In this document: positions 4,519 to 10,847 of the stretch, piece after piece | Position numbering within the stretch: position 1 is the first letter of the stretch | Layout: each line of letters starts with the position of its first letter | Assembly: GCF_029504735.1 (NCBI RefSeq) | Contig: NZ_JAQFIP010000001.1 | Location: 62,001-126,000 of the forward strand | Reading direction: 5' to 3' | Source of the DNA: Ereboglobus sp. PH5-10 | Lineage (GTDB): Bacteria; Verrucomicrobiota; Verrucomicrobiia; Opitutales; Opitutaceae | Length of the DNA stretch: 64,000 nucleotides | The notes under the pieces: model-generated | What the model saw: only the letters and a program-made list of their open reading frames with translations | Told to the model about the DNA's origin: nothing | Database searches by the model: none | Position numbers and translations under genes: made by a program

Positions 4519-5745
4519 TCACTCGTAGCGCAGCGCTTCGATGGGGTCGAGCGAGGCGGCTTTCCAGGCGGGATACATGCCGAAGATCACGCCGATCAGG
4601 CCGCACACGATCATGCCGACCACCGCCCAGATGACCGGGAACACGACGTTGAAGCCAAGCAGCAATCCGCCCGCAACGCCGATCAGGTAGCCGACAATCA
4701 CGCCGATCATCGCGCCGCTGAGCGAAAGCGTCACCGACTCGATCAGGAATTGCGCGAGGATGTTTATTTTTTTCGCGCCGATGCTTTTGCGAATGCCTAT
4801 TTCCTTCGTGCGCTCGGTCACGCTCACGAGCATGATGTTCATCACGCCGATGCCGGCCGTCACGAGCGCGATGCCGCTAATCACAAACGCGCCGATCGCC
4901 ACCACGCCCGCGATTTTGTTAAAGGCGTCGATGAGCGATTCGTTGGAAAAAACTTCAAAGTCGTTCGGGTCCTCCGGCTTGAGTTGGCGCACGAGGCGCA
5001 TCACGCCGATGGCGCGGTCCTGCACGGCTTCGAGGTCCTCCTGCGAGTGCGATTGCACGTTGAGGCTGATCGAGCGCCAGGCGCGTCCGTAGACCATCAG
5101 CCAGCGCGTGATCGGCGTGATGACAAACGCGTCCTGGCTTTGGCCGAGCGAGGAGCCTTTCGCGGCGGTGACGCCGATGACCGTGTAGTTTTGGTTGCCG
5201 ATGCGCACGAGCGCGCCGACCGCGCGTTCGTTGGGGAAAAGTTTCTCGACGATTTCGCTGCCCATCACACACACGGGGCGGCCGAGCGCGACGTCCTCGG
5301 GGCTGAGGTTGCGGCCGTCGGCGATGGTGTAGTTGTAGGCGGTCAGGTAGTTTTCGTCGGTGCCGATGAGGCGGAGGCTGGGGTTGGTTTTGCGGTCCTT
5401 GTATTTGGCAACGAGGCCGCCGCGCGCGAGGCGCATGCTCACCCTGGCCTCGTCGCCCATGGCGTTCTTGAAGCGGTCGGCCATGGGATAGGTGATGTCG
5501 CGGCGGTTGCGAAATTGCCGCCAGCCGTCGCCAAAGGAGATCGCGGGATATTTCTGGATTTGAAAGCTGTTGGAGCCGAGCTGGCTGAGGCCGGATTCGA
5601 TTTCGTTGCGCACGCCGTCCATGATTGTCATCGCGCCGATGATCGAGAACACGCCGATGGCCATTGCGAAAATGGTGAGGCCGCTGCGGACTTTGTTGGC
5701 GCGCAGCGAGGAGAAGGCGAGGCGGAGTATTTCGACGAGGATCAT
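4519..5745 (-). CDS. MacB-type ABC transporter permease (second of tandem pair)
   Basis: A 408-residue FtsX/MacB-fold permease: one N-terminal membrane helix (about residues 17-42), a large periplasmic MacB core domain, and three C-terminal helices preceded by the conserved NIMLVSVTERTKEIGIRKSIG segment. It ends DPIEALRYE, the typical family C-terminus. The start at 5745 overlaps the stop of the upstream permease (ATGA, 5742-5745), indicating translational coupling. With the adjacent second permease, ATPase and periplasmic adaptor it forms a tripartite efflux or mechanotransmission pump of the MacAB class. Its substrate (macrolide, peptide or lipid) cannot be inferred. The gene lacks a fused ATPase domain; the ATPase is encoded separately at 7481-8239. 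Confidence 0.92.
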   Translation of the reverse strand: MILVEILRLAFSSLRANKVRSGLTIFAMAIGVFSIIGAMTIMDGVRNEIESGLSQLGSNSFQIQKYPAISFGDGWRQFRNRRDITYPMADRFKNAMGDEARVSMRLARGGLVAKYKDRKTNPSLRLIGTDENYLTAYNYTIADGRNLSPEDVALGRPVCVMGSEIVEKLFPNERAVGALVRIGNQNYTVIGVTAAKGSSLGQSQDAFVITPITRWLMVYGRAWRSISLNVQSHSQEDLEAVQDRAIGVMRLVRQLKPEDPNDFEVFSNESLIDAFNKIAGVVAIGAFVISGIALVTAGIGVMNIMLVSVTERTKEIGIRKSIGAKKINILAQFLIESVTLSLSGAMIGVIVGYLIGVAGGLLLGFNVVFPVIWAVVGMIVCGLIGVIFGMYPAWKAASLDPIEALRYE

Positions 5746-6989
5746 TCGTAACGGAGGGCGACAACGGGGTCGAGTTTGCTGGCGCCGAGCGCCGGGATGA
5801 ATCCGCTCAGGACGCCGACGGCGAGCGAGAGGCCGAAGCCGATGAACAGGAGCGTCAGGGAAAACACGGGCGGGAACGCGGGGAACATGATGGCGATGGC
5901 CTTGCAAATGCTCCACGCGATGGTGAGGCCGATGATGCCGCCGATGACGCTGATGCTCACGGCCTCGATCAGGAATTGCATGAGGATGGTGCCGCGGCGC
6001 GCGCCGAGGGCCTTGCGCGTGCCGATTTCTTTCGTGCGTTCTTTCACGCTGACAAAGGTGATGTTCGCGATGCCGATGGCGCCGACAAAGAGCGAGAGTC
6101 CCGTGATAAAGAGGCCGGCCAGGGTGATGCTGCGCATCATGGGGTCGAGTTGTTCGCGGATTACTTTTTGCTCGTTGATGTCGAAATTGTCCTTCGCCTC
6201 GGGCGGGAGCTGGCGGATGCGGCGCATGAGGCCGCGCAATTCCTCGCGCGCGTCGTCCATGCGGGTTTGGTCCACTTGCACGCGGATTTCGACATTGTTG
6301 CCGATCCAGAAGTTGCGGCGAAAGGCGTTGATGGGCATGAGGACCATCGAGTCGAAACTGAACAGTCCGAGAAAGCTGCCCTGCCGCTCGGCGACGCCGA
6401 TGACGGTGTATTGCTGGCTGCGGATGCGCAGTGTCTGGCCGACCGGGCTGCCGTTGGGGAAGAGCGCGTCGGCGACGTCGAAGCCGATGACGACGACGTT
6501 GCGCCCGCCGCGCGATTCGACTTCGTTGAAGAAGCGGCCTTCCTTCATGTCGGTGCGCACGATGCGCGCGTAATCGGAGACGGTGCCGAGCGTGTAGATG
6601 CCGGTCACCCGGTAGTCGCCGCGGATCACGGTGCTGTTGGCGCTGGCCACGGGCACGGCGAGTTTGATCGGGGCGTCGTGTTGCACGGAGATCCAGTCGT
6701 TGATGCGCTGGGCGTGCTCGACGCGGAGGCGCGGGCGGTTGCGGTAGCTCCACCAGTCGTCCACGTCGCGCCACGGCCATTTGGTGATGTAGAGCACGTC
6801 GTCGCCGAAGCCGGAGAGGGAGCTTTCGACTTTCGCGCCGATGCCGTTGATGGCGGTTCCCATGAGCGTGACCGAGACGATGCCGATGATGACGCCGAGC
6901 GCGGTGAGCAGCGAACGCATTTTGTTCGCGCGAATCTGCGCCGCCGCGATGCGGAGCGATTCGGTGAGTTCGTGGAAAAAACGGCGCAT
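5742..6989 (-). CDS. MacB-type ABC transporter permease (first of tandem pair)
   Basis: A 415-residue paralogue of the next gene, with the same layout: N-terminal helix (residues about 20-45, LLTALGVIIGIVSVTLMG), periplasmic core domain, then three C-terminal helices after NITFVSVKERTKEIGTRKALG. It ends DPVVALRYE. The two permeases probably form a heterodimer, since both keep full-length domains and are translationally coupled. Its start at 6989 lies only about 12 bases from the left end of the repeat-bounded four-helix-bundle cassette (7001-7470), so any native ribosome-binding site would have been replaced by repeat sequence; none is evident. The ATPase gene lies on the far side of the cassette. 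Confidence 0.92.
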   Translation of the reverse strand: MRRFFHELTESLRIAAAQIRANKMRSLLTALGVIIGIVSVTLMGTAINGIGAKVESSLSGFGDDVLYITKWPWRDVDDWWSYRNRPRLRVEHAQRINDWISVQHDAPIKLAVPVASANSTVIRGDYRVTGIYTLGTVSDYARIVRTDMKEGRFFNEVESRGGRNVVVIGFDVADALFPNGSPVGQTLRIRSQQYTVIGVAERQGSFLGLFSFDSMVLMPINAFRRNFWIGNNVEIRVQVDQTRMDDAREELRGLMRRIRQLPPEAKDNFDINEQKVIREQLDPMMRSITLAGLFITGLSLFVGAIGIANITFVSVKERTKEIGTRKALGARRGTILMQFLIEAVSISVIGGIIGLTIAWSICKAIAIMFPAFPPVFSLTLLFIGFGLSLAVGVLSGFIPALGASKLDPVVALRYE

Positions 6990-7000
6990 GGCGCTTTGAA

Positions 7001-7470
7001 TTTTCGATTTTCGATTCTCGATTTTCGATTGGGCGCTACCGCGCCGATTTTGGCTTTCGGAGGAGTGTTTTGCGCGATGCGACCATAATGGCGACGAGTT
7101 CGCCGGCTTCTTTTTGCAACGGAGCTAGTTTTTTTGAGGGCATGACTCCGTGTTCGGCGGTGATTTCCAACCAGAATCCCGACTCATCGGCCTCTTCCTC
7201 GACGACGGAAAGTTTAGAAATCATTTCGGCGGACGATCGGGAACGGCAAACAGCCCGATAATTTGCGCCAACCGATGTGCCGGATCGCCCGAGTTGGTTT
7301 GCGATCACACGTCCCGAGTGCGTGTTTGGAAGTGAGTCCACTACTTTCAAAACCCGAAGCGCGAATTTTTTGGTGCGTTGTTTGAGTTCGTTTTCAGTCA
7401 TGATGTTTTTTGGGGTTAATATTCAAATATGGCGCGGTAGCGCCCAATCGAAAATCGAGAATCGAAAATT
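7001..7470 (-). mobile_element. Candidate cassette: four-helix-bundle gene between 39-bp inverted repeats
   Basis: Positions 7007-7045 and 7431-7469 are perfect 39-bp inverted repeats. Each arm has a GC-rich mini-palindrome (GGCGC-GGTA-GCGCC) next to a simple tail built of CGATTTTCGATT units. Between them is one short gene, whose stop codon lies inside the left arm. The block separates an ABC ATPase gene from its permease genes, so it looks inserted. There is no transposase gene. The name mobile element is an inference; the repeats and gene are directly visible. Confidence 0.55.
7036..7401 (-). CDS. Four-helix-bundle protein (23S rRNA intervening-sequence protein family)
   Basis: A 121-residue helical protein of the family first found as ORFs in 23S rRNA intervening sequences (S23/TIGR02436 type), structurally related to the Avd accessory protein of diversity-generating retroelements. 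Recognisable pieces are the first helix (FALRVLKVVDSLP), the junction QLGRSGTSVGANYRAV and the charged helix VEEEADESGFWLEI. The C-terminus is basic (RKTLLRKPKSAR) and its last codons overlap the left inverted repeat, with the stop at 7036-7038. The gene is co-oriented with the efflux operon but unrelated to it. Cellular role is unknown; possibilities include nucleic-acid binding or aiding movement of the flanking repeats. Confidence 0.88.
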   Translation of the reverse strand: MTENELKQRTKKFALRVLKVVDSLPNTHSGRVIANQLGRSGTSVGANYRAVCRSRSSAEMISKLSVVEEEADESGFWLEITAEHGVMPSKKLAPLQKEAGELVAIMVASRKTLLRKPKSAR

Positions 7471-7480
7471 AAACAGTCTG

Positions 7481-8239
7481 TCATCGGTTCATTTCATCCG
7501 TTTCAATAAGTCCGTCTCGCAACCTCACTATTCTCCGCGCGTGCCTGGCGATGTCTTCCTCGTGGGTGACCACGATGAGCGTGTTGCCTTGTTTGTAGAG
7601 GTCCTCGAAAAGGGCCATGATTTCCTCGCCGGTGCGCGAATCGAGATTTCCCGTCGGCTCGTCGGCGAGGATGATCGAGGGGGTGTTCACAAGGGCGCGC
7701 GCGATGGCAACGCGCTGGCGCTGTCCGCCGGAGAGCTCGTTGGGCTTGTGGTTCATGCGGTCGGCGAGGCCGACGTGCTCAAGCGCGGCGCGGGCGCGTT
7801 CGAGGCGGTCGTGGCGCGGCACGCCGGCGTAGATGAGCGGGAGCTCGACGTTGTGCAGCGCGGTCGAGCGGGCGAGCAGGTTGAAGGTTTGGAAGACGAA
7901 GCCGATTTCCTGGTTGCGGATCGCGGCGAGCTCGTCGTCCACCATGTGGGCGACGTTTTTCCGGTTGAATTCGTAGAGTCCGGCGGTCGGCGTGTCGAGG
8001 CAGCCAAGCATGTTCATGAGCGTCGATTTTCCGCTGCCGGACGGGCCCATGATGGCGAGGTATTCGTTGCGATGGATTTTGAGGGCGACGCCGCGCAGCG
8101 CGTGGATCGTCTCGGTGCCCATGTGGTAGAGTTTCGTGACGCCTTCGATTTCGATGACGAGCGAGCCGGGCGGACGGTATTCGCGCGCGGGGGGGATTGG
8201 CGTGGCGGCGTTGGGAGATTCGTGGGGGGCGAAGGTCAT
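7481..8239 (-). CDS. MacB/LolD-type ABC transporter ATP-binding protein
   Basis: A 252-residue ATPase that powers the two adjacent permeases. Walker A is GPSGSGKS, the Q-loop lies in [10 protein letters not shown], the signature is LSGGQRQR, Walker B is [13 protein letters not shown] and the H-loop is VVTHEED. An N-terminal stretch of ~28 residues (rich in Pro/Ala) precedes the conserved [13 protein letters not shown] start at 8239; the frame is open farther upstream, but that part would be translated from the CGATTTTCGATT repeat and reads SQSKIV and NRKSKIF, typical of repeat-derived peptide. The gene lies between two repeat blocks, one before its start and one after its stop. Confidence 0.94.
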
Positions 8240-8245
8240 TGGGAA

Positions 8246-8380
8246 AATTTTCGATTTTCGATTTGGCAGACTGTCGCTGTCGCTCGAAACGATTTTCGAT
8301 TGGGAGCTGCCGCTCCGCTTTCGATTTCGGGCACGCGCGGAAGCGCGCAATCGAAAATCGAAAATCGAGAATCGAAAATA
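8246..8380. repeat. Empty inverted pair of the CGATTTTCGATT hairpin repeat
   Basis: AT-rich tails AATTTTCGATTTTCGATT at 8246-8263 and the inverted tail at 8349-8380 bracket further CGATTTTCGATT units and small hairpins (GGAGC-TGCC-GCTCC; CGCGC-GGAA-GCGCG). The arrangement matches the ends of the cassette at 7001-7470 but contains no gene. It fills the gap between the adaptor and ATPase genes and would fold in the operon mRNA. Confidence 0.7.
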
Positions 8381-8413: not shown

Positions 8414-9805
8414 TTACTTCTTGCCCGGCTTCCGCGCGTCCTCCACCACGTCCATGCCGTCGCGGAGGATGCGGGTGATGGCGGCGTAGCTGCCCGAGAC
8501 GATTTTGTCGCCTTCCTTCACGCCGGTTTTGATTTCCATGTGCGTGGTGTCGGCGATGCCGGTTTCGACGGGCACCATTTTAACCTTCGCGCCTTCGAGA
8601 ACAAACACGACGCGGTCGAGCGACTCGCGGTCGTTGCGCTCGGAGAGGCGCTTGTCGCGGGTGTTGACCGCGGTGGCGGCGCCCTCGCCTTTTGTCTCGG
8701 AGCTTTTCCTGGCGCGGTCGGCGGCGAGCTGGTCCATGGTTTTGCTGCCTTCGCGCGAGCGGACGGTGACGGACTGGATGGGCACGGCGACGACGTTTTC
8801 GACGGTTTGCGTCTCGACGTCGGCGTTGGCGCTCATGCCGGGGCGGATGGGGATGTCCTTGTCGAGGATGCGGATTTTCACCTGAAAGTTGGTGACTTCC
8901 TCCTGCGTGTTGCTGCCGGTGGTCTTGGCGGCGGAGCCGATTTCCTTCACGACGGCGTCGAACTTGCGACCGGGAAAGGCGTCGATGGTGACGCGGGCCT
9001 TGTCGCCAACCTTCACGTTGACGATGTCGTTTTCGTTGATGTCCACGCGCACTTCCATGTTGGTGAGGTCGGCGACGCGCATCATTTCGGTGCCGGCGAA
9101 TTGTCCCGTGCCGACGACGCGCTCGCCGACTTCCGAGGTGCGCGAGCTGATGGTGCCGTCGATGGGCGAGTAGATGGTGGTTTTGTCGAGCTGGTCCTTG
9201 GCCTGGTTGAGCAGGCCCTCGGAGCTGTTGATGGAGGCGTTGGCGGCGTCGAGGTTGGCGCGGGCGCGGTCGTGGAGGGCTTTCGTGGCGATGAAGTCGG
9301 ATTCGGAAATGAGGTTTGTTTTGTAGAGGCCCTCGGCGCGCTTGAGGTCGTCCTCGGTTTTGATGAGCTGCACTTGCGCGTCGGCGGCGGAGGCGCGCGC
9401 GGAGGCGAGCGCGGCTTCGCGTTGCTCGACTTGGAAGCGGTAGTTGTCGGCTTTTATTTGCGCGAGCAGGTCGCCTTTTTTCACATACGCGCCCTCGCGA
9501 AACGGCAGCTCAAGGATTTCGCCGGCGACTTCGGGGGAAATTTTCACCTCGGTCTCGGGCTGTATTTTTCCGGTGGCCGAGACGATTTGCGTGATTGTTT
9601 TGATGATCGCCGGCTCGACGGTCACGCGCTGCGCCTTCGGGCCGCGCTTGCCCGCGGCGACGGCGGCGATGACGAGGCCGACGACAACGAGGCCGCTGAC
9701 AAGAAGAAGCAGCCCCTTGCGCGATTTGCGGCGCGGGCGCGTTGCGCTTGGGCGGGTGACGGTCTGGTTGGGTGCGGAGGACGAGGGAGATGCGGGGGAT
9801 GACAT
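8414..9805 (-). CDS. MacA-like efflux RND/ABC periplasmic adaptor subunit
   Basis: A 463-residue membrane-fusion protein. The N-terminus is basic and Pro/Ser-rich, followed by one membrane anchor (GLLLLVSGLVVVGLVIAAVA, about residues 30-50). Then come a beta-barrel/lipoyl half (KISPEVAGEILELPFREGAYVKKGD), a long alpha-helical hairpin (about residues 120-210, heptad-like, with ASARASAADAQVQL), the second lipoyl half (IYSPIDGTISSRTSEVGERV) and a membrane-proximal C-terminal domain ending KVGDKARV to GDKIVSGSYAAITR. It links the inner-membrane ABC permeases to an outer-membrane channel, which is not encoded nearby. It is the first gene of the efflux operon; a repeat hairpin separates it from the ATPase gene. 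Confidence 0.93.
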   Translation of the reverse strand: MSSPASPSSSAPNQTVTRPSATRPRRKSRKGLLLLVSGLVVVGLVIAAVAAGKRGPKAQRVTVEPAIIKTITQIVSATGKIQPETEVKISPEVAGEILELPFREGAYVKKGDLLAQIKADNYRFQVEQREAALASARASAADAQVQLIKTEDDLKRAEGLYKTNLISESDFIATKALHDRARANLDAANASINSSEGLLNQAKDQLDKTTIYSPIDGTISSRTSEVGERVVGTGQFAGTEMMRVADLTNMEVRVDINENDIVNVKVGDKARVTIDAFPGRKFDAVVKEIGSAAKTTGSNTQEEVTNFQVKIRILDKDIPIRPGMSANADVETQTVENVVAVPIQSVTVRSREGSKTMDQLAADRARKSSETKGEGAATAVNTRDKRLSERNDRESLDRVVFVLEGAKVKMVPVETGIADTTHMEIKTGVKEGDKIVSGSYAAITRILRDGMDVVEDARKPGKK

Positions 9806-9949
9806 TGGCTTGGAACGGAAAAGGGAGTGCAGGAATGAGGGGATGAAAGAACGAGGCGTGCTTTCCAAACACCCCGGCGGCGGGAGAAGTTACAATTATT
9901 TTTTTGGCGGCGCGCGGCAGGCCGTGCACACACCGCGGAAATCGTTGCG

Positions 9950-10687: not shown

Positions 10688-10747
10688 GGGATGAGGATGA
10701 TTTAAGATTAAGGTGTTACTCCAAATTTAATTTTCCTGAATTTTTTA

Positions 10748-10827
10748 ACCACGGATTACACGGATTAACACGGATAAATGCAAAAGCGCCGGAGTCCGCA
10801 TCCGTGTATATCCGTGTAATCCGTGGT
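10748..10827. repeat. Inverted repeat of the ACGGATTACACGGATT type
   Basis: Left arm 10748-10775 and right arm 10800-10827 are 28-bp inverted copies with two mismatches, built of ACGGATTACACGGATTAACA-like units with a 24-nt loop. It lies between the end of slyD and the start of ppgK, and could act as a transcript end for slyD. A degenerate relative is at 13410-13505. Confidence 0.75.
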
Positions 10828-10847
10828 CATGTGTTTTTAGTAAAATT

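Follow-up and report, generated by a model that had tools for sequence, protein, structure and literature searches.

Short four-helix-bundle genes between inverted heptad arms: a probable family of mobile units across bacteria

The genome of Ereboglobus sp. PH5-10 (Opitutaceae) carries a small gene framed by perfect inverted repeats inside an efflux operon, which raises the question of whether such a block is a resident of the operon, a passenger of some other element or a mobile unit of its own. The DNA analysed is a stretch of 64,000 nucleotides (contig NZ_JAQFIP010000001.1, positions 62,001 to 126,000), hereafter the window. An initial annotation had described perfect 39-bp inverted repeats around one four-helix-bundle (4HB) gene, each repeat being a GC-rich mini-palindrome with a tail and one of them containing the stop codon of the gene, and all of this is borne out. 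The perfect repeats lie at 7007–7045 and 7431–7469, and the extended arms (6998–7052 and 7424–7478) are 87% complementary. Arm 1, on the 3' side of the gene (7000–7045), consists of a tail of tandem 7-mers of the CGATTTT type (ATTTTCGATTTTCGATTCTCGATTTTCGATT, 7000–7030) and a 15-nt mini-hairpin (GGGCGCTACCGCGCC, 7031–7045); arm 2, on the 5' side (7431–7469), consists of the mini-hairpin GGCGCGGTAGCGCCC (7431–7445) and inverted heptads (AATCGAAAATCGAGAATCGAAAAT, 7446–7469). This heptad array, which the initial annotation overlooked, is the true signature of the unit. The whole unit measures about 0.45 kb and holds one small gene only, on the minus strand at 7036–7401, whose TAG stop codon (7036–7038) falls within arm 1.

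The gene, identified as an open reading frame (ORF) with matches to TIGR02436 and PF05635, encodes a 121-aa protein of the S23 (23S_rRNA_IVP) family, scoring 77.5 bits against TIGR02436 (cut-off 24) and 49.5 bits against PF05635 (cut-off 33.8), the latter being its only Pfam match in a Pfam scan. The structure model of the protein (pLDDT 95) has as its closest folds the S23-family structures 2RLD (Z 17.8) and 2GSC (Z 15.8), followed by the Avd protein of diversity-generating retroelements (DGRs; 4DWL and 8UB7, Z about 13–14). PF05635 has been described as Avd-like (PMC10053308). The protein has no recognised catalytic site. Unlike a classical insertion sequence or transposon, the unit is filled by this single 4HB ORF, and no Y1 tyrosine transposase, other transposase or recombinase gene lies between the arms.

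The same design recurs at other 4HB genes. In this genome, inverted arms (called when the inverted-repeat score was at least 13, with neighbouring flanks as controls) flank all seven short 4HB genes and none of the seven control flanks, and the best period is 7 at six of these seven loci. The heptads differ from locus to locus (CGATTTT, GGATTTT, AGGAGTC, AGAGTGA, a GGCCAGA-like type and, twice, AATTCCA), so that the question whether 4HB genes of this genome share tailed inverted ends is answered with yes for every short one, each end type built on its own repeat. A second unit, with 74% DNA identity to that of the window, lies on contig 24, again between ABC ATPase and MacB-type permease genes. 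The larger 4HB fusions of 258 and 317 aa (L015 at C15:42639 and L017 at C3:90454) showed no heptad inverted repeats. These two proteins combine an N-terminal S23/Avd-like bundle with a C-terminal topoisomerase-type zinc finger (CPxCGxPM...WGCxxYPxCKGT). Among relatives of the same family, sampled at one locus per genome, arms were called at 25 of 29 loci vs one of 29 control flanks taken 470–700 bp further out. Across phyla (Cyanobacteriota, Bacteroidota, Acidobacteriota, Chloroflexota, Nitrospirota and others) the counts were 58 of 78 usable loci vs 3 of 71 controls, in a sample that belongs mostly to one subfamily because the alignment used for scanning came from that subfamily, a more diverse alignment having had no conserved stretch. 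Period 7 ranked first in 86 of 90 scored arms, and heptad inverted repeats were present at all eight S23/4HB loci inspected on cyanobacterial plasmids. Searches among viral contigs and phage records returned no relatives of the queries.

Arm and protein vary together. Over 99 loci, arm similarity climbs with 4HB protein similarity (Mantel r 0.45, with none of 2000 permutations as high), and for the control flanks the corresponding value is −0.13. AGGAGTC arms, for instance, accompany 4HB proteins that are 66–71% identical on cyanobacterial plasmids and in this genome. Heptad type tracks the 4HB subfamily rather than the host. Because arms and gene are physically linked, such co-variation on its own reflects common descent together with constraint and is no proof of recognition; nevertheless, the comparison shows a repeat of about 30 bp conserved across phyla alongside moderately similar proteins, which would not be expected of neutral sequence.

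The plasmids of cyanobacteria also provide filled and empty sites. A block of 416–418 bp, 78–82% identical between copies and bounded by the outer ends of the heptad arms, occurs in three unrelated contexts, on Aulosira laxa plasmid 2, Nostoc sp. ATCC 53789 pNsp_a and Trichormus variabilis ATCC 29413 plasmid C, and beyond it matches are limited to other short heptad arrays. The site filled by the unit in Trichormus and Scytonema plasmids is empty in those of Nostoc linckia, Aulosira, Tolypothrix and others, where the same two genes are separated by 13 bp; the N. linckia flanks are 99.1% and 97.3% identical to those of Trichormus over 645 and 715 bp. At this same site Nostoc sp. C052 pC052_E (L312) retains a truncated AGGAGTC-type 4HB remnant. 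Additional empty sites were found as counterparts of the Aulosira, Nostoc and Nostoc edaphicum copies. Target duplications are not consistent among the plasmid units: one of 4–5 bp is possible at one or two of the sites, with none or a small replacement elsewhere. Several plasmid units lie either at the stop codon of the gene upstream or within the final codons of that gene, which gains a new stop from the unit. Calothrix brevissima NIES-22 has an S23 unit with GGGTGTA heptads on both plasmid 1 and plasmid 2 (L301/L302), in each case inside a larger shared block beside a phage-integrase-family gene. We count the family as mobile on the basis of these filled and empty sites in relatives, at which the unit ends at its arms. 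The earlier proposal of a minimal mobile unit without transposase is thus right for the family, as shown by comparison of related plasmids and by ends of the same design at other 4HB genes, but for the copy in the window mobility can be called no more than likely.

Besides gene-bearing units, the genome harbours many gene-less elements of the CGATTTT type. One of them lies in the window at 8247–8379, in the gap between the HlyD and ATPase genes, and consists of two hairpins with inverted heptad tails and an additional insertion (TGGCAGACTGTC...). It had been reported as a gene-less copy with the same ends; the design is indeed the same, but the ends are not exact, arm identity being about 88–91%. 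In the corresponding gap of two relatives (G002 and G051) a gene-less element of the TGCGGAA type is found instead. Searching all 45 contigs of the genome (3.58 Mb) with the ends of the window unit gave 136 matches, grouped into about 40 elements, so the ends are not unique and the repeats in the window are not a matter of chance. The gene-less elements are mostly two-armed and roughly 107–150 bp long. Like MITEs, they have terminal inverted repeats and no gene; unlike MITEs, they have arms that are heptad arrays, and no transposase-bearing parent was found. The suggestion that they are footprints of the window unit finds no support; the pairs look like a separate MITE- or REPIN-like population with a conserved core of its own. 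No empty site for a CGATTTT element was found against the sister species G002, the gaps being filled in both species, often with different heptad types; within the family no clean empty site came to light, every comparable site being occupied and the heptad differing at about six in ten of them. Single heptad arrays, apparently within coding sequence, differ in a similar manner between this genome (G000) and G002 (L238, L125): C7:116006 has CGATTTT vs GGGATTT and C23:13599 has GGATTTT vs GCGGAAT, with flanks 96–98% identical.

Considering these observations together, we think it probable that the unit belongs to a pan-bacterial mobile family in which a 4HB gene travels with arms made of its own heptad, the 4HB protein guides the movement, gene-less pairs are moved in trans and one branch has settled in rRNA. 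A typical unit would be roughly 410–580 bp long, with one short S23/Avd-type 4HB gene between inverted tandem 7-mer arms, each 4HB subfamily having its own heptad, and comparison of otherwise near-identical sites shows that the unit is gained or lost together with its arms. The 4HB protein is probably a pentameric ring, as in solved relatives, and the ring could bind the heptad arms when they are folded back in single-stranded DNA or RNA. The bound protein may then steer insertion or copying, carried out by the replication and repair machinery of the host or by a further partner, often, it appears, beside stop codons, and gene-less pairs may be mobilised in trans. Such a scheme would resemble the RAYT/REPIN partnership, with unrelated protein and ends. 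RAYTs and REPINs have been described as populations in which a single-copy helper gene is accompanied by tens of gene-less doublets (PMC3116915). The 4HB system likewise has a helper-type gene, each kind single-copy and flanked by inverted repeats, together with tens of intergenic inverted doublets, about 100 bp long, that carry no gene: in the three many-4HB genomes examined, 4HB types were essentially single-copy and no near-identical copies of one type occurred at several places per genome, and CGATTTT gene-less pairs reach tens. Unlike RAYTs, the 4HB protein has no Y1 domain and gene-bearing units move too, and the ends are tandem 7-mer tails with a hairpin rather than GTAG/GGAG-tagged palindromes. 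The link between gene-less pairs and the gene can be examined across the 61 genomes of the family, 16 of which contain CGATTTT gene-less pairs: these are present in nine of nine genomes with an at least 60% identical 4HB protein vs 7 of 52 others (Fisher 6.6e-7, a value that ignores kinship). For the TGCGGAA type the same test showed no trans link, gene-less copies being found in two of four 4HB carriers vs nine of 57 others.

The fact that gene-less elements spread or persist in genomes without the 4HB gene is also what would be expected if the 4HB protein were a passenger with some other, perhaps protective, role, and MITE-like heptad units were moved in trans by a host transposase of the Y1/RAYT or insertion-sequence type. 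Copy numbers of 4HB and Y1_Tnp genes are in fact correlated over 61 genomes (rho 0.51). Nevertheless, the Y1 genes of this genome mostly have palindromic REP ends of their own and no heptads, two of the genomes with at least five 4HB genes lack any Y1 match, and the tight subfamily-specific pairing of 4HB and heptad over many phyla is left unaccounted for; we therefore regard the passenger role as unlikely, although it is the strongest of the alternatives. Eight Y1_Tnp/RAYT-like genes occur in this genome (L018–L025; contigs C21, C9, C1, C3, C18, C7 and C4), most of them enclosed by REPs that differ in type from one gene to the next. RAYTs as drivers of the heptad elements were rejected on account of these differing ends, despite the copy-number correlation.

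A second alternative treats the unit as an RNA element: its arms would serve for excision or folding, it would be inserted by way of cDNA that a reverse transcriptase supplies in trans, and the 4HB protein would be an Avd-like chaperone. The proximity of the DGR Avd fold to the modelled protein, which is the nearest after the S23 proteins (Z about 14), agrees with this, as does the cutting out of rRNA relatives by RNase III (PMC4990558). Orientation points the same way: 38 of 41 units between neighbours of agreeing strand are co-oriented with them (the strand of each neighbour being estimated from the longest ORF), a bias compatible with reliance on host transcription or with selection. Against these points, 4HB and RVT_1 copy numbers are uncorrelated (rho 0.08), RVT_1 matches are missing from 18 of the 29 genomes with at least five 4HB genes, and sense-strand G–U pairs are not in excess in the arms (107 vs 173 A–C). 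The sign of this last difference is the reverse of that expected for selection on an RNA stem, but A-rich stretches ahead of the start codon distort the count, so that it speaks neither for nor against such selection. The absence of RVT_1 from so many carriers and the lack of correlation make dependence on a reverse transcriptase unlikely as a rule. The unit also differs from DGR Avd genes in that no reverse transcriptase adjoins it, the only RVT_1 match of the genome being on another contig, and no template/variable repeat pair was noticed. We hold this route to be decidedly improbable.

The operon around the unit shows how the family reading applies to the window itself. On the minus strand, the host operon comprises the HlyD/MacA-type periplasmic adaptor (8414–9868), the ABC transporter ATPase (7481–8239, outside the unit, assigned from its ORF and orthologues), the MacB/FtsX-type permease A (5742–6989) and permease B (4519–5751), and the unit parts the ATPase gene from the two FtsX/MacB-type permease genes, as first described. 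The window-lineage 4HB gene was found in this HlyD–ATPase–permease–permease operon in the 14 genomes compared, eight of which were picked for the operon DNA search and the others for carrying the window 4HB lineage. Its position varies: it may lie between the ATPase and permease A, between the two permeases, or after permease B. The sister species G002 has permeases, ATPase and HlyD that are 96–99.8% identical to those of the window, but the 4HB protein in the gap matching that of the window unit shares only 55% identity with the window protein and its arms are of the TGCGGAA rather than the CGATTTT type. Permease and 4HB trees are incongruent (Mantel r 0.11, p 0.15), and the window lineage is also present in several relatives without these operon genes nearby. 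According to the initial annotation, an identical insertion at one and the same site throughout the relatives would refute its reading; the operon is indeed occupied in the relatives examined, but in three different gaps and by different 4HB lineages. No clean empty site for the window's own copy was found among the relatives compared. The use of three gaps, the swap of lineages in G002 and the disagreement of the trees indicate that cassettes have replaced one another in, or re-entered, one favoured operon. That the gene is an immobile resident serving the efflux pump, with old regulatory or processing repeats, as the presence of the window lineage here in 14 genomes or more might suggest, is very improbable given the three gaps, the discordant trees, the replacement of the lineage between sister species, its presence in several genomes away from the operon genes and the same architecture in unrelated contexts. 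A 4HB protein 86% identical to that of the window occurs in a distant genus (G046:C1:2404599, L242), and the copy of G051, of the same genus as the window, is less close (79%); transfer between genera is possible for the G046 gene on the basis of these identities. Another interspersed element type is represented in the window at 10714–10841 by the inverted pair ACCACGGATTACACGGATTAACACGG...CCGTGTAATCCGTGGT; the same gap in G002 measures 13 bp and has no such pair, that is, it is a near-empty site.

The mobile family as we read it also offers a place for the intervening sequences (IVSs) of 23S rRNA. That of Coxiella burnetii measures 428 nt with a 28-bp terminal stem, has tandem GACAGAT heptamers ahead of its S23 ORF, at the first of which RNase III cuts, and its S23 protein is apparently not made (PMC4990558). 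The Xanthomonas S23 protein 2GSC is a pentameric ring, according to the work cited in PMC4990558. Like the window unit, a 23S IVS has one S23/4HB ORF, a length of about 430 nt and a stem-forming terminal inverted repeat; the Coxiella IVS shares tandem heptamers at the 5' arm, and mobility of IVSs has long been suspected. Whereas IVSs occupy rRNA helices, where RNase III cuts them, the window unit lies between transporter genes, and an Rfam test of 40 relative loci placed none of them in rRNA. The shared architecture indicates that 23S IVSs with S23 ORFs are probably one rRNA-dwelling branch of the heptad-armed family. More tentatively, and with the balance of our judgement somewhat against it, the 4HB protein could be the specificity factor of an unrecognised form of DNA or RNA mobility, in which the ring reads its own tandem heptads at about one repeat per subunit, carries the folded arms to a target site and works with no known transposase, recombinase or reverse transcriptase, and of which the 23S inserts, and possibly Avd, would be descendants or relatives.

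Heptanucleotide repeats were already known in bacteria (PMC4679880). In the literature searched, with subscription papers mostly outside it, no paper joined 4HB genes, inverted heptad arms and mobility, and within that literature the new element is a heptad-armed 4HB mobile family across bacteria with exact empty sites. The 4HB genes are among the commonest bacterial gene families of 'unknown function', and they are now tied to a mobile element with defined ends. If each 4HB protein binds its own heptad, it would be a mobility helper unlike those known. The 23S rRNA intervening sequences gain a place in a wider family, and the finding may bear on how Avd was recruited to diversity-generating retroelements and may account for many of the interspersed 7-mer repeat arrays in bacterial genomes.
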